A stretch of DNA of 64,000 bases from Bacteroidales bacterium (lineage in GTDB: Bacteria; Bacteroidota; Bacteroidia; Bacteroidales; Marinilabiliaceae): the NCBI GenBank assembly GCA_024401365.1, contig JAKSLE010000012.1:18892-82891 (forward strand). The letters are read 5' to 3'. Below the pieces are notes generated by a model. The model was not told where the DNA came from. It was given only the letters and a program-made list of their open reading frames with translations, and did no database searches. Position numbers and translations under genes: made by a program. Positions 6,426 through 32,118 of the stretch are shown piece by piece. Numbering within the stretch: position 1 is the stretch's first letter; every line of letters begins with the position of its first letter.

Positions 6426-6480
6426 GTGCGAAAACGCACGCTTAGGGTGTGCGAAAACGCACATGTGTGCGATAATGCAC
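6426..6480. promoter_or_regulatory. Three phased inverted repeats (GTGCGA-type activator sites)
   Basis: GTGCGAAAACGCAC at 6426-6439 and 6449-6462, and GTGCGATAATGCAC at 6467-6480. The starts are 23 and then 18 bp apart. The same three-site arrangement with identical spacing lies upstream of the tolC operon (14233-14287). The position, about 85-140 bases before the predicted start of transcription, fits upstream activating sequences for a sigma-54 enhancer-binding protein. The activator itself is not identified. Confidence 0.75.
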
Positions 6481-6537
6481 ATGTCGAAGCATTCTGGTTT
6501 TTGTGTTAAGTATCACAGTATCAGTTGGTTGTGTGTT

Positions 6538-6553
6538 TGGCATATTTTTTGAC
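6538..6553 (+). promoter_or_regulatory. Sigma-54-like -24/-12 promoter of the lone permease gene
   Basis: TGGCATATTTTTTGAC. GG at 6539-6540 and GA at 6551-6552 are separated by ten bases, the spacing of sigma-54 promoters (consensus TGGCAC-N5-TTGC), with A for C in the -12 dinucleotide. The tolC operon has the same TGGCATA-N4-TTGAC form at 14346-14361. It predicts transcription from about 6564, 21 bases before the ATG at 6585. Confidence 0.6.
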
Positions 6554-6584: not shown

Positions 6585-8969
6585 ATGTTTGCACATTATC
6601 TGAAAATCTCTTTTCGCAATCTTTGGAAGCATCGTCTCCAGACAATAATAAGTATTGTCGGTCTCTCTGTTGGCATGGCATGTTTTGCTATTTCAGCAAT
6701 GTGGTTGCAATATATTGAGTCGTTTGAGGATTTTGTCAAGGATAGAGACAGGCTCTACGTATTATCTCCTGGTCCGGATGGGTTTGAGGCCGACTCAAAG
6801 AACTATCTATCACAGTCATTCATAGCCGAGAATCTCCAGAAGATGTGCTCTGAGATAGAAGATGTATACTCGTACAATATATCAGGCTACGAAATGTACG
6901 ACGAGGAAGGGAACGTCTTCTATTTTACGTCCATAGCTCTTGATGATTGCAGCAAGATATGTGGGGTATTGGATATCGACATGAAATATGGTTGTCTGCC
7001 CAAGAACAACAGCTCCGAGATAGCAGTCAGCACTGTTGTAGCCAAGTTATTGTTCGATACAGAAGATGTTGTAGGTCGTGCTGTTACTTCGGGTTCCAGA
7101 GCGTACGGTATCAAGAACGAACTCACTATAGTTGGTGTTTTTGAGCCTCTGCCCGACAATACCACTCTTTTCTCGGGCGTTTCCATCATATCAATATCAG
7201 ACCACGGCACAAATCTTATGGACTGCTACAATCTGATTAAAGTATACGAAGGCACTGATATCGACGCCTTATCGGACAAGATACGACACGCTGATATTTC
7301 AAGTAAGGTCACATACTATCAGGGAATAACAGAGGATATTCGTCCCGACATGTCGTTGTATTCGCTTCTGCCGCTCACTAAGTTGCGTAGTGATTTTCCA
7401 TCGGCCTTTCGCGGTGTAAACGGTCGCAATGTACGCATTATAGTGGCTATATCGCTCATTACCATCATCAGTGTTCTTTGTCACTATTTTATTACCATGA
7501 TAACGCTTATCCGTATCCGTTGTCGTGCATTGGCGCTCCGTCGTATGTTGGGTTCGTCGATTATTGGTATAGTAGGCATGAACGTTATAGAGACGTTGAT
7601 ACTGTTCATTGCGTCATCTGTATTAGGTGCAGTAGCCATATACTTTATTTTCCCAGTCTTCCTTGTCTACTCGCAGTTGTACACTATTACCTATGAGTAT
7701 CTCATTATTGCAACTGCCAAATTCTGGTCGTTAGTCTTTGCAGCAGGCATAGTACTGACTATTGTTGCCACTCTCATTTCGTTGCGTCGGACGCAGCATA
7801 CCATACTTCACGGACATCAGTCGCACAAGACATCTTCAAAGCTCGATACGGTGGCCAATATGATACAACAGACGGTAAGTCTGTCTATATTGTTCTGTAT
7901 CGGAACTATAATGATGCAGATAACGTTCTTGAAAGAATCGGCCGATTTAGGGTTTGATCACAAGAACAGGTTGTCCATAGCCAAATGTCCTGGTGCCGTG
8001 AAAGAGTATCTTCTCTCATTGTCAGAGATTGTAGATTCGTATGAATCAACAGACCCCCTCTTCCCAAGGTCGAGTTACTCGCCCTACAAAGTATTTCCAT
8101 TCAAAGATACAAACGAATATTTCGACGCCATAGGTCTATGTATTAGAAAGTCCGCTGTCGATTTCTGGGGAATGACGCTTCTTGAAGGTCGTCTACCTGA
8201 AGAGCAGAGGGAGCTATTGATCAATGAGACGTTAGCCATGCGGTTGCCCGATAGCATTATTGGTAGTACCATACGAATTGCGGCAGCGGCCAATCCATCA
8301 TTCCCATTCACCATAGTGGGCATTGTGAAGGATACCTACGATACATCTGTATTGACACAGCCAAAGCCTACCACGTACGAATTTGATGAGTTGTATACTG
8401 ATCCGTGGAATCCATGCCTCTCGCTGTCAGTCAAAGCCAAGACTGCCGAAGATATGATTTTTCTGTATCGTAAGGTATGGGAATATTCCGATTCGCTATA
8501 CAGGGCAGGGACCACAACTACGTTGCCACGTTCGATATCAAGCATGGATCTGCATTTTGAGTCGATCATGAGGAACGAGAATCTACTTTTCAGTGTCCTT
8601 ATGCTTATAGCTGTGTGTACGCTCATGACCACGCTCTTTGGAGTCTTTTCGCTTCTTTCGCTCTCACTTGAGCAAAGAAAGAAAGAGATAGCGCTGCGCA
8701 AGATACATGGGGCCACGGTTCGTCAGGTAATGGCAGTGTTTGTGCGTTCCAATATTCTGACGCTACTCATCTCATCGGCCATAGCGTTTCCTATAGCATA
8801 TATTCTTATGCAAGAATGGCTTTCGGTTTATGTGCGTCAGATACCGTTTCCATGGTACTTAGGTATCATAATTTTTGCAGCGATGGCTATATTGATATTC
8901 CTCACTACCATTTGGCGAATCATGGGAGCAGTGAAGGAGAACCCGGTAGAGGTTATAAAGAACGAGTAA
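6585..8969 (+). CDS. FtsX/MacB-type ABC transporter permease
   Basis: 794 residues. The layout is that of a Bacteroidota MacB-like permease with two FtsX domains. There is one N-terminal membrane segment (about 14-35) after the amphipathic start MFAHYLKISFRNLWKHRLQT, then a periplasmic MacB_PCD region (about 40-270). A first FtsX domain of three helices spans about 285-405, a second periplasmic region about 440-665, and a last three-helix FtsX domain about 665-790. It ends in the typical NPVEVIKNE. No ATPase gene is adjacent, so it may use the ATPase at 17188, whose operon shares the same control region. A bidirectional terminator follows. Substrate unknown. Confidence 0.88.
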   Translation: MFAHYLKISFRNLWKHRLQTIISIVGLSVGMACFAISAMWLQYIESFEDFVKDRDRLYVLSPGPDGFEADSKNYLSQSFIAENLQKMCSEIEDVYSYNISGYEMYDEEGNVFYFTSIALDDCSKICGVLDIDMKYGCLPKNNSSEIAVSTVVAKLLFDTEDVVGRAVTSGSRAYGIKNELTIVGVFEPLPDNTTLFSGVSIISISDHGTNLMDCYNLIKVYEGTDIDALSDKIRHADISSKVTYYQGITEDIRPDMSLYSLLPLTKLRSDFPSAFRGVNGRNVRIIVAISLITIISVLCHYFITMITLIRIRCRALALRRMLGSSIIGIVGMNVIETLILFIASSVLGAVAIYFIFPVFLVYSQLYTITYEYLIIATAKFWSLVFAAGIVLTIVATLISLRRTQHTILHGHQSHKTSSKLDTVANMIQQTVSLSILFCIGTIMMQITFLKESADLGFDHKNRLSIAKCPGAVKEYLLSLSEIVDSYESTDPLFPRSSYSPYKVFPFKDTNEYFDAIGLCIRKSAVDFWGMTLLEGRLPEEQRELLINETLAMRLPDSIIGSTIRIAAAANPSFPFTIVGIVKDTYDTSVLTQPKPTTYEFDELYTDPWNPCLSLSVKAKTAEDMIFLYRKVWEYSDSLYRAGTTTTLPRSISSMDLHFESIMRNENLLFSVLMLIAVCTLMTTLFGVFSLLSLSLEQRKKEIALRKIHGATVRQVMAVFVRSNILTLLISSAIAFPIAYILMQEWLSVYVRQIPFPWYLGIIIFAAMAILIFLTTIWRIMGAVKENPVEVIKNE

Positions 8970-12707: not shown

Positions 12708-14138
12708 TTAGAATTTATGCCGATGGTTGCCGCGGTAAGATTTCAGGTGGACCTTGCTTTTGATGATGGATAATGTTCTGCGACCTTTGCCGGCGATGGT
12801 AATTGGATGTCGCCAGAAGACATAAAGAAGTTGCAGCGTCATTACCACCCATAGCAGTGGCTCGCATATAATAATACCCCAAATACCCATATAAGGTACT
12901 ATGACATAGGTGAACACTATTTTGCCGATCAGCTCAATGAAGCTAGATACAAGAGGCAGCATTTTTTCGCCTAGCCCCTGCAATGAATGGCGGGAGACAA
13001 ATAGGATGCCGAGCACTCCGTAGAATGGTTGTATGAACGTTACATACGTACTGCCATAGTCCAGAACCTCTTCCTCGGAAGAGCCACTCATGATGGATAT
13101 GAGATAACGCGAGATGAATGGGATGATAAGTGTGCACGTGATGCCCCAAGCGACGCACAGGTAATTGGCTACTGTGACTCCTCGACGTATGCGACTGTAT
13201 TTGTGGGCTCCCAGGTTCTGAGAGACAAATGTTGCACAGGCTGTTCCCAATGCCAGGAGTGGGATGACGGAAAGACCGAACACTTTGCGGGCTGATATAT
13301 GGCCAGCTATGACTAATGTGCCGAAAGAGTTGATGGACGACTGCAAGATGACAGAGCCAGAGCTGACCAGTGCGCTCATGAGAGCCATGGACAAGCCCTG
13401 TTGCATGAGTTCGACATATATAGCTCTGTCGAGGCAGAAGTGACGTCGCTGAGGAAGGAGGATAGGTGTCTTGCGGAAGATATAGACAGCGCAAAGCAAA
13501 GCGCTCACACCCTGAGCCACAACGGTTGCAATGGCCGTTCCCTGGACTCCCATCCCAAACTCACGAATGAGAACTACATCGAGTAGTACATTGAGACCAG
13601 AAGATACGATGAGAAAAACCAACGCCATGAAAGAGTTGCCTATGGCTCTCAATAGGCCTGACAATAGATTATAGGCGAACAGAACGCAGCAAAAAGCGGC
13701 TACCAATCCGATATAACCATGGGCTTCGTCCAGTATCTCTTCGGGGGTATCGAGGAGAGTAAGCAGATCGCGCAAAAAGAATAGACCCAGAAGCGTTATC
13801 AGTACTGAGACGGCCAACGAGACGACTATTGATGCTGCCACTGATTTTTTCAGTGTCTCATCATCCTGAGCGCCATAGGCACGAGCTACAACGATGCTGA
13901 GGCCGTTGCCAAATCCCAATCCGAACCCTACCATGAGTTCGAATATTGCTGCACATGCGCCGATAGCCGCCAAAGAGTTCTCGCCCAGATAGTGACCTAC
14001 GATGCTGGCATCTACAGCATTGTAAAGCTGTTGGAACAGGCACGACACTATGATAGGCGCAGAGAAGGCTATCATAGCCTTGACGATGTTGCCATTGGTC
14101 AATTCGGGATGAAGGAGACTATGTGCTGATGGACGCAT
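12708..14138 (-). CDS. MATE family efflux transporter
   Basis: 476 residues with about twelve membrane segments in two homologous halves. The first helix motif is SAPIIVSCLFQQLYNAVDASIVGHYLG, with FGFGNGLSIVVARAYGA following, as in MATE (MatE) proteins. MATE proteins export drugs or metabolites against sodium or proton entry across the inner membrane. The gene is divergent from the tolC operon. The three GTGCGA-type sites lie in the 241-bp interval, 95-149 bases upstream of its start, so it could share that regulator. It has its own -7 element (14165-14172). Substrate unknown. Confidence 0.92.
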   Translation of the reverse strand: MRPSAHSLLHPELTNGNIVKAMIAFSAPIIVSCLFQQLYNAVDASIVGHYLGENSLAAIGACAAIFELMVGFGLGFGNGLSIVVARAYGAQDDETLKKSVAASIVVSLAVSVLITLLGLFFLRDLLTLLDTPEEILDEAHGYIGLVAAFCCVLFAYNLLSGLLRAIGNSFMALVFLIVSSGLNVLLDVVLIREFGMGVQGTAIATVVAQGVSALLCAVYIFRKTPILLPQRRHFCLDRAIYVELMQQGLSMALMSALVSSGSVILQSSINSFGTLVIAGHISARKVFGLSVIPLLALGTACATFVSQNLGAHKYSRIRRGVTVANYLCVAWGITCTLIIPFISRYLISIMSGSSEEEVLDYGSTYVTFIQPFYGVLGILFVSRHSLQGLGEKMLPLVSSFIELIGKIVFTYVIVPYMGIWGIIICEPLLWVVMTLQLLYVFWRHPITIAGKGRRTLSIIKSKVHLKSYRGNHRHKF

Positions 14139-14232: not shown

Positions 14233-14287
14233 GTGCGAAATCGCACGTTCGAGGTGTGCGAAATCGCACATGTGTGCGAAAATGCAC
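14233..14287. promoter_or_regulatory. Three phased inverted repeats upstream of the tolC operon
   Basis: GTGCGAAATCGCAC at 14233-14246 and 14256-14269, and GTGCGAAAATGCAC at 14274-14287. Starts are 23 and 18 bp apart, exactly as at 6426-6480. In both places the third site is the imperfect one (ATGCAC right arm). The interval from the last site to the -24 GG is 59-60 bases in both regions. Confidence 0.78.
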
Positions 14288-14345
14288 AGTAGAGGTGGAG
14301 CGGTTGTATTGCTATAAGTGCCAGTGTATGAGGTAGTTGTATTTT

Positions 14346-14361
14346 TGGCATACTATTTGAC
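14346..14361 (+). promoter_or_regulatory. Sigma-54-like -24/-12 promoter of the efflux operon
   Basis: TGGCATACTATTTGAC. GG at 14347-14348 and GA at 14359-14360, ten bases apart. It predicts a transcript start near 14372. That leaves only 8 bases before the ATG at 14380 but 23 before the in-frame ATG at 14395. Confidence 0.6.
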
Positions 14362-14379: not shown

Positions 14380-15879
14380 ATGATGTTAAACGATATGATA
14401 GCAAATGCATACAGATATATAGTAGCTCTGTTGATTGGGTTGTTTGTCGTGAACAATGCCAATGCTGAGATGGATATGGATACTCTGCGCCTAACGTTGC
14501 AAGATGCCATACTGATGGCGCAGCAGAATTCGCCATCGGCACAGAGCGCACGTCATCAGTATCTGGCGGCATACTGGAACTATCGTTCGTTCAAGGCCAA
14601 TTATCTGCCTTCGGTAAGTATGTCGACATCGCCACGACTAAACAGGGCGATAAATAGTGTGACACAAGGTGACGGTACAAATGTATTTGTGAAGCAGAAT
14701 CAGCTGTTGACTGATGTATCGTTGAGAGTAAATCAGAATATAGCGTTGACAGGCGGCTCGCTCTTTGTGGAGACATCCGTTACGAGGATGGATGAGCTGG
14801 AACGCAACACTAAGTCGTTCAATGCCATGCCAGTGCAGATAGGTTATCAGCAGAGTCTATTCGGGTACAACGACCTGAAGTGGTCGAAGAAGATAGAGCC
14901 ATTGGCCTATCAGCAAGCCAAGAAGGAGTATGCCGAGGCACTAGAGCTAGTGTCGGCACAGGCTTGTGATGTGTTTTTTGACTGGATATCGGCGCAAAGC
15001 AACCTGGAGACGGCGCGACTCAACTATGCGGCAGCAGACACGCTATACCGTATGGCCCAGGGACGTTATGATATAGGCAGCATAAATGAGAGCGACATGC
15101 TGCAACATGAAATAAACAAGCTGAATGAAGAGACCAACTGTATGGATGCTGAGGTGTCGTTACAGAGTGCTACACAGACGCTATGTTACTATCTGGGAAT
15201 ACCAGAAAATAAAAATATTGTGTTGATTCTTCCAGAGGATGTTCCTGACCTTCAAGTTCCACTGGACAAGGCTATGATTCTGGCAATGGAGAATTCTCCT
15301 GAGCCAGACTCATACACCTTGGCGAAGATACAAAGCGAGAGCAACCTGGCCTACGCTAAGTCGGCTGCCGGTATAAGAGCTGATTTGTATGCGAGATTTG
15401 GATTGTCGCAGACGGCGGGCACGCTAAAGCAAAGCTACCAAGATATGGACCAGCAAGAGTATGTGAGTCTGACAGTATCGATACCCTTGCTGGACTGGGG
15501 TAGAGGAAGAGGCTCGGTGAAGGTGGCACGATCGAGACGCGACTTTGCCGAGACGCAAGCTAAGCGCAGTATGCAGGATTTTAGGCAGAGGGTACAGCGA
15601 CTGGTGATGCAGTATAATATGCAAGGTAGGAAGGTGTCGATAGCGCAGCGCACTACAATGCAGGCTAATCAGCGTTACAATGTGGCTAAGCACCTGTACA
15701 TAGTGGGGCGTAACACGATACTGGACCTGAATGCGTCGGTAACCGCCAAGGACCAGGCAAAGCGCAACTACATATACTCGATGAAGACCTACTGGAGTCT
15801 GTACTACACGCTACGCAGTCTGACGGGGTATGACTTCCAATATGAGATGCCGTTGGCGGATCTGCTGCCAACAGAATAA
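14380..15879 (+). CDS. TolC-family outer-membrane efflux protein
   Basis: 499 residues from the first ATG. The signal peptide ends at NNANA, and the mature start DTLRLTLQDAILMAQQNSPSAQ is the standard opening of outer-membrane efflux (OEP) proteins. Two OEP repeats rich in long helices follow, the second starting near VPLDKAMILAMENSPE. It forms the outer-membrane channel for the tripartite pump encoded downstream. It is first gene of a four-gene operon (14380-20303). Start choice: ATGs at 14380, 14383 and 14395 are all possible. The last gives a better signal peptide and a normal leader if the sigma-54-like promoter is right. Confidence 0.92.
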   Translation: MMLNDMIANAYRYIVALLIGLFVVNNANAEMDMDTLRLTLQDAILMAQQNSPSAQSARHQYLAAYWNYRSFKANYLPSVSMSTSPRLNRAINSVTQGDGTNVFVKQNQLLTDVSLRVNQNIALTGGSLFVETSVTRMDELERNTKSFNAMPVQIGYQQSLFGYNDLKWSKKIEPLAYQQAKKEYAEALELVSAQACDVFFDWISAQSNLETARLNYAAADTLYRMAQGRYDIGSINESDMLQHEINKLNEETNCMDAEVSLQSATQTLCYYLGIPENKNIVLILPEDVPDLQVPLDKAMILAMENSPEPDSYTLAKIQSESNLAYAKSAAGIRADLYARFGLSQTAGTLKQSYQDMDQQEYVSLTVSIPLLDWGRGRGSVKVARSRRDFAETQAKRSMQDFRQRVQRLVMQYNMQGRKVSIAQRTTMQANQRYNVAKHLYIVGRNTILDLNASVTAKDQAKRNYIYSMKTYWSLYYTLRSLTGYDFQYEMPLADLLPTE

Positions 15880-15909
15880 AAAAGACGAATACGAAAAAAA
15901 GCAAGATAT

Positions 15910-17160
15910 ATGGACATAAAGATAGAGAAAAGACCCTGGTACATAAGATATAAGTACACCATACTGATGGGTGTAGCGCTATTGGCCCTTGTGGTATATG
16001 CCGTAATACTCTCGCTGGGACCACGCACTATAAAGGTAAATGGGACAGAGGCGCGAGTAGCCGAGGTGAGCAAGACATACTTTATGGAATATGTGGATGC
16101 CGAAGGTGTGGTGAAGCCAATATCGACCATAAGAGTAAATGCACTCGAGAGCGGTACGCTGTCCAAGATAGTGGCAGAAGACGGTGCTATGCTGCGCAAG
16201 GGAGACTCGATACTCTTTCTGGAGAATGTGGAGCTGATGCGTACGATAGATGACGAGAGAGACGAATGGCAGAAGCAATACAACTTGCTGCAAGAACAAA
16301 AGTTGTCGCTGGAGCAAAAGGTGATATCGCTAAGGCAACAGACGCTGGATGCACAATATGAGCTATCGAGACTGGACAAAGACCTGACAATAAACAAAGA
16401 AGAGTTCAGGATGGGCATAGTGACTAAGGCTCAGCTGGAGATGAAAGAGGCAGAGTATACCTACAGGCACCAGAAGGCACAACTACAGCTACAGAGTCTG
16501 CGACACGACTCGACAGCCACAGTAATACGTCAGAAGCTACTAGAGGCCGATTTCCAGCGAGTAGACAAGCGATATGAGAGGAGCAGAGAGAGGATGGAAA
16601 ACATGGTAGTGAGGGCTACGACAGACGGACAATTTAGCTTTGCGGGAGCTACACTGGGTCAGCGTATAATGGCAGGAGAAGCCATAGGCGAGATAAAGGT
16701 GATGACGCAGTACAAGATGAGCATACAACTCAATGAGTACTACATAGACAGAATATCGCTAGGACTACCAGCTAGCATAACCTACCAAGAGCAGAAATTC
16801 GAACTTAAGGTGAGCAGGGTAGTGCCAGAGGTGAAGAATCATGCCTTTGAGGTGGAGCTAGTCTTTGTGGGTGAGATGCCAAGCAACGTGCGACTAGGCA
16901 AGAGCTACAGAGTACAAGTAGAGCTAGGTCAGCAAGAGACAGCCATAGTGATGCCAAGAGGCGACTTCTACTCTACGACTGGTGGTAAGTGGATATTTAA
17001 GCTTACATCGGATGGCAAGAGGGCTGTGAAGGTGCCGGTGACTATAGGACGTCAGAATCCTAAGCAGTATGAGATACTCGACGGTCTAGAGCCAGGAGAC
17101 AAGGTGGTACTAAACGGGTACTCGAATTATGGAGATATAGAAGAACTAAGCATACAATAA
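15910..17160 (+). CDS. Periplasmic adaptor (HlyD/MacA-type membrane fusion protein)
   Basis: 416 residues. A short cytoplasmic start (MDIKIEKRPWYIRYKY) precedes one membrane helix at about 18-36. Next come half of a lipoyl domain, a helical coiled-coil hairpin (about 95-205) and the second lipoyl half (MVVRATTDGQFSFAGATLGQ). Beta-barrel and membrane-proximal domains (GDFYSTTGGKWIFKLTSDGK, LEPGDKVVLNGY) complete it. It would bridge the inner-membrane permease and the TolC-like channel. It lies 30 bases after the channel gene and 27 bases before the ATPase gene. Confidence 0.92.
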   Translation: MDIKIEKRPWYIRYKYTILMGVALLALVVYAVILSLGPRTIKVNGTEARVAEVSKTYFMEYVDAEGVVKPISTIRVNALESGTLSKIVAEDGAMLRKGDSILFLENVELMRTIDDERDEWQKQYNLLQEQKLSLEQKVISLRQQTLDAQYELSRLDKDLTINKEEFRMGIVTKAQLEMKEAEYTYRHQKAQLQLQSLRHDSTATVIRQKLLEADFQRVDKRYERSRERMENMVVRATTDGQFSFAGATLGQRIMAGEAIGEIKVMTQYKMSIQLNEYYIDRISLGLPASITYQEQKFELKVSRVVPEVKNHAFEVELVFVGEMPSNVRLGKSYRVQVELGQQETAIVMPRGDFYSTTGGKWIFKLTSDGKRAVKVPVTIGRQNPKQYEILDGLEPGDKVVLNGYSNYGDIEELSIQ

Positions 17161-17187
17161 CAAACGAAAAAAATAAAATATACAGAT

Positions 17188-17862
17188 ATGATACAGTTAT
17201 CACAGATTCAGAAGATCTTCCGTATGGAAGAGGTAGAGACATGGGCAGTCAACAATGTTGACCTTAACATCAAAGAAGGCGAGTTCGTCGCTATCATGGG
17301 ACCATCAGGTTGCGGTAAGTCGACCTTGCTCAACATACTTGGTCTGCTTGACACGCCAACCAAAGGTGAGTACAAACTACAGGGAGTGGACGTGAGCAAT
17401 ATGAATGAGACCGACAGGACAAAGCTACGCAGAGGCGTGATAGGTTTCGTATTTCAGTCGTTCAACCTTATAGACGAGCTGTCGGTATATGAGAACATCG
17501 AGTTGCCACTGCTCTACATGGGCAAGAGCGCCAAAGAGAGAAAGCAGCTAGTGGAAGAAGCCATGAAGAGGATGAACATAGAGCACAGGCGCGACCACTT
17601 CCCTGCACAACTCTCGGGCGGACAGCAACAGAGAGTAGCCATAGCGCGAGCAGTTGTATCGAGTCCGAAGATAATACTGGCCGACGAGCCAACAGGTAAC
17701 CTCGACTCAAAGAACGGTATAGAGGTGATGAACCTATTGACAGAGCTCAACAAAGAGGGTACTACCATAGTGATGGTAACACACTCGCAGAGAGATGCCG
17801 GGTATGCATCGCGTGTGATAAGACTCTTTGACGGACAGATAGTATCGTCGGTAGAGATGTAG
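17188..17862 (+). CDS. ABC transporter ATP-binding protein, MacB/LolD type
   Basis: 224 residues, a single ATPase domain. Walker A GPSGCGKST is at 38-46, the signature LSGGQQQR is intact, and Walker B is [13 protein letters not shown]. Residues IGFVFQSFNLIDELSVYENIELPLLYMG are typical of the MacB/LolD/FtsE branch that powers FtsX-type permeases. It pairs with the permease 35 bases downstream and possibly also with the lone permease at 6585. Confidence 0.95.
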   Translation: MIQLSQIQKIFRMEEVETWAVNNVDLNIKEGEFVAIMGPSGCGKSTLLNILGLLDTPTKGEYKLQGVDVSNMNETDRTKLRRGVIGFVFQSFNLIDELSVYENIELPLLYMGKSAKERKQLVEEAMKRMNIEHRRDHFPAQLSGGQQQRVAIARAVVSSPKIILADEPTGNLDSKNGIEVMNLLTELNKEGTTIVMVTHSQRDAGYASRVIRLFDGQIVSSVEM

Positions 17863-17897
17863 TTTTTTGAGGTTAGAGGCATAGTCAGAAAAATGAT

Positions 17898-20303
17898 ATG
17901 ATATTACATTACATAAAGATTGCGATTCGCAATTTAAAGAAATACAAAGTACAGACAGCCATCAGTGTCATATCAATGGCAGTGGGAGTCACGCTTATGG
18001 CCGTGATACACTCGATGCTATTGGTAGTACTAGAGGTAAGTTCGCTTGAGAGGAATCCCGACTACAACCAGATACACTGGGTGCAAGGAACTGTATGCCG
18101 TCAGCCAGTGTTTCTGCAGAAGTTGGAAAACAGAGAATTCAAGTCGATACGCGACTACTGCACACTGCCAGACCATACATTTACGATGGAGGTCTACCTA
18201 GAAGACAATGAAGAGCAAGAGAAGTATGTGCGAGGGAGGGTGCTAAGTGTGCCGCAAAAGACGCTCGACTTCTACCACTTCATATCTCCGATAACAGGAG
18301 AGCCATTGAAGAAGCTAGAAGACAATACGGTGATAGTGACCGAGAACTTTGCCATGCAGACATACGGGACACTAGACGTAGTGGGCAGGCAAGTAAGGCT
18401 TTGGGATTACACACAAAAGTGGAATGAGCAAGAAGGAAGATACGATATAATACCCAACGAATGGAAGTCGTTCATCATCTCGGACGTACTCCATACAAAT
18501 ATGAGTGACAACTTCGACGATGCCGACATATACAAGAAACAAGACGACTATCTGTGCCAAATGTACAAGATACTGCTGATACCCAATGAAGGGTGCCAGT
18601 ACCAGCAGCTATGTGACGATATATTGCCACTAGCAGAAGAGCTGCTAGGCACGGAACATGAGACCAGCATAGGCTATCTGCCTTGGAGCTACCACAGCTA
18701 TGAGAACGGTGACAACTGGCAGCCAGATATGTATCATACGATAAAGGCGATATGCTATACGGTGGTAGGGCTCATACTATTAGCGGCATTTTTGGGCTAT
18801 ATAAGGATGCAGACGCAGCTCTTCTGGATAAGGCAGAGAGAGATAGCACTGAGAACCGTAGTAGGCGGGCAGATGAAGTCGCTCTTCGGGCTATTCTTCT
18901 CAGAGATAGGGCTAGTAATGCTATTGACACTCGGTACCTCCCTGCTGATATGCCATATAATGCGCGAGCTGCTATATGAGAGTGCGACGATATTCTTCAA
19001 GAAAGGCGGTATGCTATGGCAGATGAACGACTTTGAGCAATATGCTGTAGTTGTAATTGTGGCATTGACCATATTGAGTATGCTCTTTGTGATGCTAGCG
19101 GTATGGCAGATAAGACAATCGCAGACAGGACTGGCGCTACAGATGAAGCCACAACGCAGTCACGCCATGCGCAGGATAGCCTTAGGCTTCCAGATGATAC
19201 TATCGACGATATTCATAGCATTGTCACTGATGCTATACGACGCAGTACTGGAGAGCATAACACAGGGACAAGAGGGATATAATGTGGAGAAATACAGAGA
19301 GAGCTTTGTATGCTCCATTACAATCGCGGAGACCAACTTCTATGACAAAATGGAGAGATTGAAGAAGATGGACAAAATAGAAGGCGTTGTACCATGGTAT
19401 AGAGACTATTCGAAATATGATATGGAAGAAGAGATACAAGAGTTGAAATACTACTTAATATACACGCAAAAAGACGATGAGCTGGTGAAGTATCTGGATA
19501 TAGAGATAACCCCTGTACCATGCTCGGCCAGCAAAGAGAACACGGTATACGTATCAGAGAAGATGTATGATGCCATCACCAAGGGAGGGACACAAGCTGC
19601 ACCAGCTATAAGGATGTTTAGTTTATATGATTATGAAACAAATCAATTTCTGGAGCCAGAATATGCGTATGTGGCAGGCACCTTCAAGTCGATGCCATCT
19701 GATTCTCCCAATATACAGACAGTGATTTGGAACCGACCATACAATACGGCGACCTATCTTGTCAGTGCCAAGAAAGGCGAGACAGAAAATGTGCGAAAAG
19801 CGCTGACAGAGTTACGCGACGAAGGGTTGGCATCGGTACCGAAAGATCCAGTGCAGCAAGTGAAGAAGGCAAATGACAAGGGAGAAAGGCTGATGTTTGC
19901 GGCAGTATATACTATATTCATACTCACGGTTATCAATATAATAAGCACCTGCTCGTCGCTCTACTCAGCCATATCGCTAGATGTGCGAAGGAGGAAAAAA
20001 GAGGTGCAGCTACGCAAGATAAACGGAGCATTGGCAAGAGATATATTCAAGATATTCTCGAAAGAATATATGATACTGCTGATAGTATGTTTTGTAGCAG
20101 CATTGCCATTGAGCTATATTGCCGGAATAATAGGATCGCAAGCGCTGAATATCAGTCAGAGCAACTTCGAAGATGTAATCTGGATGTTTATCTGGAACTA
20201 TACGAAGGTAGCGGGACTGATAACCATAATAACGGTACTGACAGTAGGCGGCAAGATATGGGGCATAATGCACGTAAAGCCAGTGGAAGCCCTTAAGGAA
20301 TAG
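17898..20303 (+). CDS. FtsX/MacB-type ABC transporter permease
   Basis: 801 residues with the same layout as the protein at 6585. One N-terminal helix comes after MILHYIKIAIRNLKKYKVQT, followed by a MacB_PCD region. Three helices span about 280-415, and a second periplasmic part about 450-670. A last FtsX domain ends in MHVKPVEALKE. It completes a MacAB-TolC-like exporter: substrates are taken from the periplasm and pushed through the TolC channel by mechanotransmission. Its stop lies five bases from the stop of the convergent gene at 20309, with no terminator between. Confidence 0.9.
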   Translation: MILHYIKIAIRNLKKYKVQTAISVISMAVGVTLMAVIHSMLLVVLEVSSLERNPDYNQIHWVQGTVCRQPVFLQKLENREFKSIRDYCTLPDHTFTMEVYLEDNEEQEKYVRGRVLSVPQKTLDFYHFISPITGEPLKKLEDNTVIVTENFAMQTYGTLDVVGRQVRLWDYTQKWNEQEGRYDIIPNEWKSFIISDVLHTNMSDNFDDADIYKKQDDYLCQMYKILLIPNEGCQYQQLCDDILPLAEELLGTEHETSIGYLPWSYHSYENGDNWQPDMYHTIKAICYTVVGLILLAAFLGYIRMQTQLFWIRQREIALRTVVGGQMKSLFGLFFSEIGLVMLLTLGTSLLICHIMRELLYESATIFFKKGGMLWQMNDFEQYAVVVIVALTILSMLFVMLAVWQIRQSQTGLALQMKPQRSHAMRRIALGFQMILSTIFIALSLMLYDAVLESITQGQEGYNVEKYRESFVCSITIAETNFYDKMERLKKMDKIEGVVPWYRDYSKYDMEEEIQELKYYLIYTQKDDELVKYLDIEITPVPCSASKENTVYVSEKMYDAITKGGTQAAPAIRMFSLYDYETNQFLEPEYAYVAGTFKSMPSDSPNIQTVIWNRPYNTATYLVSAKKGETENVRKALTELRDEGLASVPKDPVQQVKKANDKGERLMFAAVYTIFILTVINIISTCSSLYSAISLDVRRRKKEVQLRKINGALARDIFKIFSKEYMILLIVCFVAALPLSYIAGIIGSQALNISQSNFEDVIWMFIWNYTKVAGLITIITVLTVGGKIWGIMHVKPVEALKE

Positions 20304-29179: not shown

Positions 29180-30085
29180 ATGAGGGAATGTGCAAAAGAA
29201 GATAGGCAGAAAGAGATAGTGAAGGTAACACTTATAGGCAGTGTGATAAATGCGCTGCTTATAGTATTGAAATTTGCTGCAGGTATAGTAGGACGCTCGT
29301 CGGCCATGATAGCTGACGGCGTGCACTCGTTGAGTGATTTTCTGACCGACTTTGTGGTAATCATAATGCTAAGGATAAGCAGTAAGCCTAGCGATGAAGG
29401 GCACGATTACGGACATGGTAAGTTTGAGACACTAGCGACAACCATAATAGGACTATTGTTGATATTAGTAGGTGGTGGTATACTATGGAGTGGGGTTGTA
29501 AAGATATACGATTATTATGCCAATGACATAGAGATAGCTGCGCCGGGGTGGCTTGCTTTCTGGGCGGCGATAGCCAGTATTTTATTGAAAGAGGGGATAT
29601 ATCAGTATACCATATATAAGAGCAAGAATCTGAACAGTGAAGCTTTGGTGGCCAATGCTTGGCACCATCGTTCGGATGCGCTCTCGTCGGTAGGTACGGC
29701 GATAGGTATTGGAGCCTCATGTTTCTTGGGAGATAAATGGAGTATTCTTGATCCATTGGCGGCAGTTGTTGTAAGTTTCTTCATATTCAAGGTATCCATA
29801 CAGTTGATACGCAACAGTGTAAATCAGCTATTGGAGAGCAGTCTGCCCAAGGAGGTAGAAGACAGTATAGAAAAACTTGTGCATTCATTTGAAGGGGTTG
29901 AAGATATGCATAATCTTCGTACGCGTCAGATAGGAGTTCACTATGCAATAAATATGCATGTGCGAATGAATGGAGATATGACACTTCATGAGGCGCATGA
30001 GAAGGCCACTCTTATAGAGCAAAGGTTGAGAGAAGAGTATGGCGCTCAAACAATTATTACCATTCATGTTGAACCTTTGAAATGA
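29180..30085 (+). CDS. Cation diffusion facilitator family transporter
   Basis: 301 residues from ATG 29180; a GTG at 29171, overlapping the mutS stop, is an alternative. There are six membrane helices. Metal-site motifs are HSLSDFLTDFVV in helix 2, GHDYGHGKFETLATT after it and AWHHRSDALSSVGT in helix 5, all typical of CDF exporters of zinc, manganese or iron(II). A C-terminal cytoplasmic dimer domain follows (HNLRTRQIGVHYAINMHVRM). The metal specificity cannot be read from the sequence. Confidence 0.92.
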   Translation: MRECAKEDRQKEIVKVTLIGSVINALLIVLKFAAGIVGRSSAMIADGVHSLSDFLTDFVVIIMLRISSKPSDEGHDYGHGKFETLATTIIGLLLILVGGGILWSGVVKIYDYYANDIEIAAPGWLAFWAAIASILLKEGIYQYTIYKSKNLNSEALVANAWHHRSDALSSVGTAIGIGASCFLGDKWSILDPLAAVVVSFFIFKVSIQLIRNSVNQLLESSLPKEVEDSIEKLVHSFEGVEDMHNLRTRQIGVHYAINMHVRMNGDMTLHEAHEKATLIEQRLREEYGAQTIITIHVEPLK

Positions 30086-30123
30086 ATTATTATTATTTTT
30101 GTTGTCCAAACACCTTACCCATT

Positions 30124-32118
30124 ATGCGAAAAATTATACTACTACTTGCGCTTGCTATTGTGTCATCTGCTATAAGTTATAGTCAGGAGGTACAAAATGA
30201 AGAAGAGCTAGATTCACTATTGTCTGTTTATGAGAAGCAGACAGGAGTAGAAAAGTTAAAGACTTGTCACCGTATAGGAACCTATTTGTCGTTTGGTTCG
30301 ATTGACCGTGCGCAGCAATATGCTTTTGAGTCTGTGTATGAAGGTGAACAGATGCTGAATAGCAATATATCTGCAGAAGAAAAGAATGAGGTACGTTATC
30401 AATTGGTGAAGTTGTATCATTTGGTAGCGAATAGTTACTATATGATAGCATCGAGGACGGACGACGAGCAAATTCATCAAAATTCAGCGGCTAAGGTTTC
30501 GGAGTATGCCGGCATAGCGCAAAGAATGCTTTCGAAGGTAAGGTATCCAGAAAAAATAGATGGGTATGATCCTGCGATTCCCGTTTCAGTTAACCAGCTT
30601 CATGTTATTTACTATATGCTCAAGGGGAATGTGGATTCGGCCCTTTATTACAATAGTAAGGCTATGGACTATTGTCTGGAGAACGACTTAAAGGTTAAGT
30701 ATGCCAATATGCTTCAGAACAGGGCGAATTTACATATTACGGCTGGGCAACTGGAAGAGAGTAAGAAGTGTTTGATAGATGCATTAGCAGCGTTAGATGG
30801 AGAAGAAGGAACTGATCCGTTGGCGAGACGTTTGGTAGTTACCATATACGAGAATCTGGCAGCAGTGGAGGTTAACACTGGCAATTTTGATAAGGGTGAA
30901 GAGTATATAAACAAGACGCTAGAGTTGGTAGATGAAGATAAAGACTTTGTGTTGATATGTTATTGTTATGGAGGATTGTCGGAGATAGCAGAAGCCAGAG
31001 GCGACTACAAGGGGGCGTTTGAGCATTACAAGACATACAAGGCGTACGAGGACTCGTTGTTTAACAAGAACAAGGCTGAGCAGATAGCGGCATTGGAAGT
31101 TAAATATGATACCTATCAGAAAGAGACTGCCATCAAGACACTGAAGAATCAGAAAGCTATGATTGTAGTGTTGGTGGTAGTATTGGTTGTAATTATTGCA
31201 CTTATTGCTTTTTATGCGAATGTAAGACGGCGTGCTAATAAGGTATTGGCCGGTAAGAACAAAGAGATTCAAGAGCAAAGAGACAGGATAGCGGAACAGC
31301 GAGACGAGTTGAACACTATGTTGGTAGAACTGTCGGACAATATATCGTATGCCAGTCTATTGCAGAATCGTATTATGATAGGTGACCGTAACATACGAGA
31401 GATTGTAAGTGAGTCGTTTGTTATCTATTCGCCCAAGGATGTGGTAGGTGGAGACTTCTTCTATGTTAAGCAATGTGGGGATTATAAGATATTATCTGTA
31501 GCTGACTGTACTGGCCATGGTATAAGTGCGGCTATGTTGACTATAGTAAATATTTCTCTTTTGAACGAGTATTTTGCGGCTGCAAACGAGACGTGCAACA
31601 GTGCAGTATTTGACCCTTATTTTGATCCTGCGTCGATACTAGAGACACTCAGAGTCAATGTAAAGAAGACGTTGAATGCCCGTGAGTATGAGACGATAGC
31701 CATGAGTGGTATGGATATGGCTATGATGGTACATAAGAAGGGAGACGCGGAAGTGAGGTTTGCGGGAGCCAACAGACCTCTGTATGTGGTGAGAGAAGAC
31801 AAAGAGCTAGTAGAAGTGAAGCCAGTACGAAATCCTATAGCATCGTATGTAAACGAGAAGACGTTTGAGACGCATAGCTTTGAATATAGAGATTCGGATA
31901 TGTTCTATATGTTCTCGGACGGTATGACAGACCAGTTCTCGGCAGACGGTTCGGCCAAGTTGAAGACAAAGGGATTGAAAGACATACTTATTGCGCATTC
32001 AGCCGAAGAAGAGCAGATGCAGAAGAAGAGTATAATGGAAGATTTCAATAAGTTCAGAGGCAGAGCTGAGCAATTGGATGATTTCATCTTAGTAGGAGTG
32101 AGAGGGTCGTCATTGTAA
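30124..32118 (+). CDS. TPR-containing SpoIIE/PP2C-type serine phosphatase, membrane anchored
   Basis: 664 residues from ATG 30124; the frame is open from 30082, but those codons overlap the upstream gene and precede a clear signal peptide (MRKIILLLALAIVSSAISYS). Domain order: periplasmic helical TPR-like repeats (about 25-330), one membrane helix at about 345-363, a short coiled coil (NKEIQEQRDRIAEQRDEL), and a SpoIIE phosphatase domain from about 405. The metal-binding motifs are DVVGGDFF and VADCTGHGISAAML, with SDGMTDQF near the end. It probably relays a periplasmic signal to a phosphorylated anti-sigma-antagonist or similar protein. No partner kinase is in the window. ArgR follows but has its own promoter. 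Confidence 0.88.
   Translation: MRKIILLLALAIVSSAISYSQEVQNEEELDSLLSVYEKQTGVEKLKTCHRIGTYLSFGSIDRAQQYAFESVYEGEQMLNSNISAEEKNEVRYQLVKLYHLVANSYYMIASRTDDEQIHQNSAAKVSEYAGIAQRMLSKVRYPEKIDGYDPAIPVSVNQLHVIYYMLKGNVDSALYYNSKAMDYCLENDLKVKYANMLQNRANLHITAGQLEESKKCLIDALAALDGEEGTDPLARRLVVTIYENLAAVEVNTGNFDKGEEYINKTLELVDEDKDFVLICYCYGGLSEIAEARGDYKGAFEHYKTYKAYEDSLFNKNKAEQIAALEVKYDTYQKETAIKTLKNQKAMIVVLVVVLVVIIALIAFYANVRRRANKVLAGKNKEIQEQRDRIAEQRDELNTMLVELSDNISYASLLQNRIMIGDRNIREIVSESFVIYSPKDVVGGDFFYVKQCGDYKILSVADCTGHGISAAMLTIVNISLLNEYFAAANETCNSAVFDPYFDPASILETLRVNVKKTLNAREYETIAMSGMDMAMMVHKKGDAEVRFAGANRPLYVVREDKELVEVKPVRNPIASYVNEKTFETHSFEYRDSDMFYMFSDGMTDQFSADGSAKLKTKGLKDILIAHSAEEEQMQKKSIMEDFNKFRGRAEQLDDFILVGVRGSSL

Follow-up and report, generated by a model that had tools for sequence, protein, structure and literature searches.

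Exporter genes and promoter arrays in the window

The window analysed here is a 64,000-nucleotide stretch of a Bacteroidales genome of the family Marinilabiliaceae (GenBank assembly GCA_024401365.1, contig JAKSLE010000012.1, positions 18,892 to 82,891). It carries two exporter units (Table 1): a permease gene with no ATPase gene adjoining it, and a TolC-HlyD-ABC-FtsX operon (14380-20303) that lies on the strand opposite to an upstream MATE gene. The first genes of the two units are of different types, as originally stated, the one at 6585 encoding a permease and the one at 14380 a TolC-like protein. The accompanying description of these units as MacB-type exporters fits only loosely. The permeases do belong to the MacB_PCD/FtsX type; however, no ATPase is fused to them, the ATPase being encoded separately (17188-17862) and the permeases lacking an ATPase domain, and the second unit is a four-gene operon.

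The exporter proteins resemble the MacAB-TolC and darobactin-type (DarBCD) systems in comprising a TolC channel, an HlyD adaptor, an ABC ATPase and an FtsX permease, but differ from both in that permease and ATPase are unfused and two permeases apparently stand alone. The adaptor scored above the RND_mfp subfamily cut-off and had DarC as its best match, while DarD was the best match of the ATPase; the equivalog cut-offs of DarB, DarC, DarD, MacA and MacB were not reached. These sub-cut-off DarC and DarD matches hint that the exported substrate may be a peptide. Elsewhere in the window, the gene at 30082-32118, immediately behind a cation efflux gene, encodes a TPR protein that also has a phosphatase domain of the SpoIIE type.

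Table 1. Genes, predicted activator sites and promoter elements. Positions refer to the window unless prefixed.
Feature	Position	Strand	Basis or remark
NtrC-family response regulator gene and kinase	G000:C4:13497-16066		3-5 kb before window start, ~10 kb before first site
C4 regulator gene	C4:13497-14873		
Activator site 1, first exporter (GTGCGAAAACGCAC; predicted site)	6426..6439	+	sequence match
Activator site 2, first exporter (predicted site)	6449..6462	+	sequence match
Activator site 3, first exporter (GTGCGATAATGCAC; predicted site)	6467..6480	+	sequence match
Sigma-54 type -24/-12 element TTGGCATATTTTTTG	6537..6551	+	TTGGCA-N5-TTTG pattern
Permease, MacB_PCD + FtsX, 794 aa	6585..8969	+	domain search; no adjoining ATPase gene
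MATE gene, upstream of second block	12708-14138	opposite to exporter operon	
Activator site 1, second exporter (GTGCGAAATCGCAC; predicted site)	14233..14246	+	sequence match
Activator site 2, second exporter (predicted site)	14256..14269	+	sequence match
Activator site 3, second exporter (GTGCGAAAATGCAC; predicted site)	14274..14287	+	sequence match
Sigma-54 type -24/-12 element TTGGCATACTATTTG	14345..14359	+	TTGGCA-N5-TTTG pattern
TolC-like outer membrane efflux protein, 499 aa	14380..15879	+	domain search
HlyD-like periplasmic adaptor, 416 aa	15910..17160	+	domain search
ABC ATPase, 224 aa	17188..17862	+	domain search
FtsX-type permease, 801 aa	17898..20303	+	domain search
C67 permease, FtsX-type, 784 aa	L029:8975-11329		41% identical to 6585 permease

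Both units are preceded by three 14-bp palindromes whose starts are spaced by 23 and 18 bp (6426-6480 and 14233-14287), and the third site of each block has the same ATGCAC right arm, both as first reported. The DNA between the sites differs in the two blocks. Each array is followed by a TTGGCA-N5-TTTG element, which we take to be the -24/-12 form recognized by sigma-54. The textbook -12 half is TTGC; at the two window elements it reads TTTGA. The reported constancy of the promoter distance also holds: from the end of site 3 to TTGGCA there are 56 and 57 nt, which become the 59-60 bases originally given if the GG within the -24 element is taken as the end point. In the window GTGCG-N5-GCAC yields 10 strand-matches, all of them at the six sites, against 0.45 expected and a maximum of 4 in 100 shuffles.

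Distribution of the palindromes in the genome

A scan of the genome (3,048,414 bases, 87% complete) located GTGCGANNNYGCAC at 8 places, every one within three promoters, compared with a single match for the reversed pattern. Sequences with at most one mismatch from GTGCGAAAACGCAC were found at 7 places, all inside the same three promoters, while at up to three mismatches the counts (84+62) approach those of the reversed control (71+55). The possibility of random scatter had been raised with the original prediction; since the genome matches are confined to three exporter promoters, with a control near nil, the motif is not randomly distributed. On the window shuffles and the genome-wide reversed controls together, we reject a chance origin of the palindromes.

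On contig C67, the third promoter carries a pair of sites with 23-bp spacing, located 57 bp before a further TTGGCA-N5-TTTG element, TTGGCATGCTTTTTG, which is followed by the 784-aa permease. Here the first site carries the variant. The relative of this locus in genome G011 has three sites, and the two-site form, in which the gap is still 57, is what would be expected from the loss of one 18-bp unit. Among the frames adjoining the C67 permease, which encode a pseudouridine synthase, an AraC-type two-component regulator and two proteins with no match, there is no ABC ATPase. The permeases at 6585-8969 and L029:8975-11329 are thus both apparently lone FtsX-type proteins, as no ATPase gene was found beside either.

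A candidate activator of the NtrC family

The genome encodes four strong Sigma54_activat proteins (on C4, C16, C23 and C45). The C4 protein contains Response_reg, Sigma54_activat and HTH_8 domains (Pfam) and a GAFTGA motif, and the adjoining kinase has HATPase_c above and HisKA slightly below the cut-off. These activators and the promoter elements suggest that the genome probably has an rpoN gene. In its receiver, its AAA+ domain with GAFTGA, its Fis-type HTH and its adjoining kinase the C4 protein resembles the sigma-54 activators of the NtrC family (AtoC, ZraR and NtrC-like), and the palindromes, whose centres lie ~90-131 bp ahead of the predicted start at a -24/-12 promoter, are likewise placed as in such systems. 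The -24/-12 promoter, the GAFTGA/HTH activator, the receiver with its kinase, and palindromes held at a fixed distance and conserved in relatives are elements of a sigma-54 enhancer-type system, and these four are found here. The protein falls under the cut-off in the best 25 of 85 NCBIfam families (top, TIGR02915, 389.6 versus 502.6), and the closest PDB entry by sequence is 4l4u, an NtrC-family regulator; the solved structures are general NtrC-family relatives only. The site sequence and the exporter targets distinguish the system from the NtrC-family systems described, neither having been found in the literature searched. No site is present upstream of the C4 regulator gene itself (L246), so that autoregulation is not indicated in the window genome.

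Conservation in the genus and family

Triples with 23/18 spacing (at most three mismatches) occur in 5 of 15 genus genomes, which together contain eight, and in none of 56 other genomes of the family; the reversed control gave 0/71. The spacers vary among the eight triples of these five genomes, yet the 23/18 spacing persists. Seven of the eight keep a distance of 56-57 to the promoter element; in the remaining one (G006) it is 45, about one helical turn shorter. A single mismatch is present in three of the eight, always in the third site. The ATGCAC form of the third site occurs in three of the eight and is not conserved in the genus, and at C67 the variant is the first site. The expectation that relatives would keep the arrangement is borne out in the five genomes and fails in the other ten (five of them at least 90% complete), which also have no close orthologue of the regulator.

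Close orthologues of the C4 regulator (667-1011 bits) are encoded by G000 (the window genome), G006, G011, G012 and G013, which are exactly the triple-bearing genomes, whereas the other ten score at most 409. Presence or absence of the orthologue and of the triples therefore agrees in 15 of 15 genus genomes. The Fisher chance of such a match is 1 in 3003, a figure that applies only if the genomes are independent; the counts are in fact linked by phylogeny, and several of the genomes lack part of their sequence. These data support the proposal of a dedicated exporter regulon under one Fis-type response regulator. In G006 the triple with its exporter lies 1.6 kb from the regulator gene, which is divergent, while in the window genome and three of its four genus relatives the C4-type gene is not adjacent to a triple. 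Two paralogues were considered as binders and rejected. The C16 protein scores above 440 bits in nine of the 15 genus genomes, five of them without triples, and is absent from G006, which has one, so that its distribution disagrees with the triples in 6/15; the C23 protein has no HTH family match.

The conservation in relatives also bears on whether the window arrays are alike merely through the copying of a promoter block with its exporter gene, from which they have yet to diverge. The 6585 and C67 permeases are indeed paralogues (41% identical), and the ATGCAC third site is common to both window arrays. Nevertheless, the gene at 14380 encodes a TolC rather than a permease, the inter-site DNA is different, the triples are kept at eight loci despite changing spacers, and the same motif recurs with other spacing in other Bacteroidota. 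We consider copying alone very improbable and, given the conservation among relatives, reject a simple gene-border copy as the main explanation, in line with the original view that the shared element is regulatory; a copied origin would in any case be compatible with function.

Elsewhere in the family the top regulator scores do not exceed 483 bits, and a search for pairs of GTGC sites found none. Ten loci of other genera (L235-L243 and L245) nevertheless resemble the window system in combining a divergent related regulator (450-483 bits), a kinase and an ABC-permease exporter, and their sites share a TGTNCG-N4-CGNACA frame with those of the window. They differ in that the fourth base of the site is mostly A, C or T, and in that some of the site pairs directly precede the exporter start and do not, as in the window, stand upstream of a promoter element.

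Paired sites and exporters in other Bacteroidota

Species genomes were scanned for two GTGC-N6-GCAC sites 4-9 bp apart with TTGGCA 45-70 bp further on. The scan returned at least 118 stretches, 80 of which were taken as loci; among the matches listed, 74 of the 80 have a -12 half (L079, L080, L087, L128, L141 and L144 were left out for lack of one) and 71 of these 74 are from Bacteroidota (L078, L121 and L146 were left out as outside the phylum). In the 71 Bacteroidota matches listed, the spacing of the sites is 21 in 57, 20 in 13 and 19 in one, where six spacings were allowed, and the gap between site and promoter is 55 in 50, where 26 were allowed. Bases that the pattern leaves free are also biased in these 71 matches: in the sites, T before (75%), inner G (86%), an A/T core (97-99%), inner C (75%) and A after (52%); the promoter favours Y (100%), R (98%) and T (92%) at its free bases. 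Three sites, originally seen as the unit of binding, are thus not general, as C67 has two and the relatives beyond the family have pairs 20-21 bp apart.

The first gene encodes an exporter subunit in 58 of the 71 Bacteroidota matches listed; four have too little DNA and nine encode something else. Two of these nine precede exporter permeases after all, with a permease 581 nt on at L081 and a MacB_PCD protein at L083. The first gene encodes an outer membrane barrel at L127 and a beta-propeller protein at L145, while family searches with the first genes of L090, L124 and L134 gave no match. Because some first genes in the matches listed are of non-exporter type, the wider regulon is not purely one of exporters. 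At the remaining two of the nine, L096:2667-4322 and L136:5527-7182, paired sites precede 552-aa thioredoxin-like proteins, with leaders of just under 500 nt; these may be additional regulon members.

A regulator gene of the C4 type is adjacent and divergent in 28 of the 58 Bacteroidota matches listed that have room upstream, and elsewhere in the locus in four. These site-linked relatives, among the matches listed, have the regulator divergently beside site pairs and sigma-54 promoters that precede TolC-HlyD-ABC-FtsX exporters. In a tree, 33 site-linked regulators and the five from the genus form one clade (support 100/99, with a warning of long branches), ten regulators of the other family genera form a separate clade (99/99), and the Rufibacter protein L080 falls outside both; L139 was omitted from the sample, L141 was kept, and L080 was kept without a group. 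The tree also points to Bacteroidales as the order of the window genome.

The linkage is relevant to two further explanations. A different regulator might bind the sites, either a repressor or another sigma-54 activator of the genome: palindromes by themselves do not identify their binder, the genome offers four strong candidates, and no regulator gene is present in the retrieved DNA at 26 of the 58 matches listed with room. We regard this as unlikely: of the three types compared (C4, C16 and C23), the C16 type mismatches the distribution of the triples, the C23 type has no recognized HTH and the C4 type both follows the triples throughout the genus and has divergent counterparts beside the sites in other Bacteroidota; the sites also lie ~90-130 bp ahead of the predicted start, as would be expected for an activator. 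Alternatively, the palindromes could function at the RNA level, forming hairpins that terminate or process the transcripts of the upstream genes. Site 1 does start 20 nt past the stop codon (6406) that ends the upstream gene in the first block, and 22 nt past the upstream stop on C67. However, the arms are only 4-5 bp long, a T run is absent, the gene upstream of the 14233 block (MATE) runs on the opposite strand, like the upstream regulator gene in the 28 related matches, and the distance to the promoter element is near-constant. An RNA hairpin is accordingly rejected as the main explanation, and we give it hardly any credence.

Covariation of the recognition helix with one base of the site

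Among the matches listed, in the loci chosen by their sites, 33 of the 34 regulators whose HTH is in view carry an aromatic residue next to the invariant arginine of the recognition helix, on its C-terminal side, the exception being L080; L139, in which the HTH is cut, is outside the 34. A second set of 30 loci was picked by the regulator protein alone, and the frame was read with up to two mismatches, leaving L246 (own gene) and L272 (2 bp upstream) uncounted. In this set, all 10 loci in which the residue is aromatic and the upstream DNA could be used have a site whose fourth base is G. Of 18 loci with an R-T-S helix, 16 have sites within 400 nt, none with G at this position; the other two are L271, with no match, and L257, with only a distant weak match, which has G. 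The recognition helix of the regulator thus covaries with one base of the site.

There are counter-cases. In the ten family regions described above (nine R-T-S, one R-A-S), G occurs in two of 24 scanned sites (L236 and L239), and L080 (R-T-A) has GTGC sites, this locus having been chosen for such sites. The 24 occurrences of the TGTNCG-N4-CGNACA frame in these regions compare with a mean of 1.31 and a maximum of 6 in mononucleotide shuffles (n=200), a comparison to be read with the fact that the frame was defined after viewing the same ten regions; the regulator-chosen loci are independent of its making. As the split in helix and base follows the two clades, it possibly reflects a single event. 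A Bacteroidales-wide family of exporter-linked activators, with the present regulator on one of its branches, in which R[Y/F][A/S]LYRK would read TGTGCG and R-T-S-LYRR would read TGT[A/C/T]CG through a small change in specificity, with site number and phasing (two at 21/20, three at 23/18, or near the exporter start) freely remodelled, is a tentative proposal that we put at rather less than an even chance.

Model for control of the exporters

The sites, promoter elements, distances, genes and domain make-up read from the sequence, with the co-occurrence and linkage in relatives, indicate that the palindromes are very probably upstream activator sequences of sigma-54 exporter promoters, bound by the C4 NtrC-family regulator. 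The phosphorylated regulator would bind the palindromes as dimers, with centres ~90, 108 and 131 bp ahead of the predicted start. The bound dimers would assemble into an oligomer that contacts the sigma-54 holoenzyme at the -24/-12 element by looping of the DNA and remodels it so that the promoter opens, with transcription predicted to start at ~6563 and ~14371. The output would comprise three units, the TolC-HlyD-ABC-FtsX operon and the two apparently lone, paralogous FtsX/MacB_PCD-type permeases at 6585-8969 and on C67. Joint control of the operon and the lone permeases suggests that the latter may use the ATPase, adaptor and channel of the operon.

A 2025 paper (PMC12316311) predicted that FtsX-like antimicrobial-peptide exporters of Bacteroidia are controlled by sigma-54, and the portion of it available to us terms the link the first evidence. 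Its exporters share promoter type, gene family and class with those of the window. In the same portion no activator is named for the FtsX-like exporters, and 'UAS', 'inverted repeat' and 'upstream activat' are absent from the main text; the available part of PMC3162934 gave no match to the terms searched. In a literature collection poor in subscription journals, no paper was found that spells out the motif in any of four versions or describes the sites or activator. The control principle is thus known, and this set of sites with its activator seems to be undescribed. The arrangement is most likely common to many other Bacteroidales, judging from the related loci. If the model is correct, it names an activator and an operator for a class of envelope exporter found in many Bacteroidales and previously predicted from promoters to depend on sigma-54; according to their record titles, a good part of the site-bearing matches listed come from gut and rumen. 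The site definition, TGTGCG-N4-CGCACA, paired and ~55 bp before TTGGCA, lets the regulon be listed in other genomes, and the changed HTHs with their changed sites form a natural series for work on activator specificity and helical phasing.

Other sigma-54-like elements in the genome

The sigma-54 pattern TTGGCAYNNNNTTTG occurs at 28 places in the genome (L044-L071), with none for the reversed control. Eighteen sit 35-134 nt before an open frame, and the others fall within frames or are ambiguous; L063, which precedes a frame by 74 nt and also lies within a long opposite frame, is not among the 18. Because the palindromes are present at only three of the 28, they mark a subset of the sigma-54 elements. 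Many of the frames behind these elements have N-termini that by eye resemble signal peptides, which may point to a wider sigma-54 set of exported proteins. The genome's other TolC-HlyD-FtsX exporter (L224:2839-4460, on G000:C22) has a sigma-54-like element at L224:4224, on the minus strand, and no GTGC sites; the end of contig C13 (L223) is a possible continuation of this exporter across a contig break. Upstream of the C22 exporter lies a TTTGAC-N6-GTCAAA-like sequence, a candidate site of another activator.
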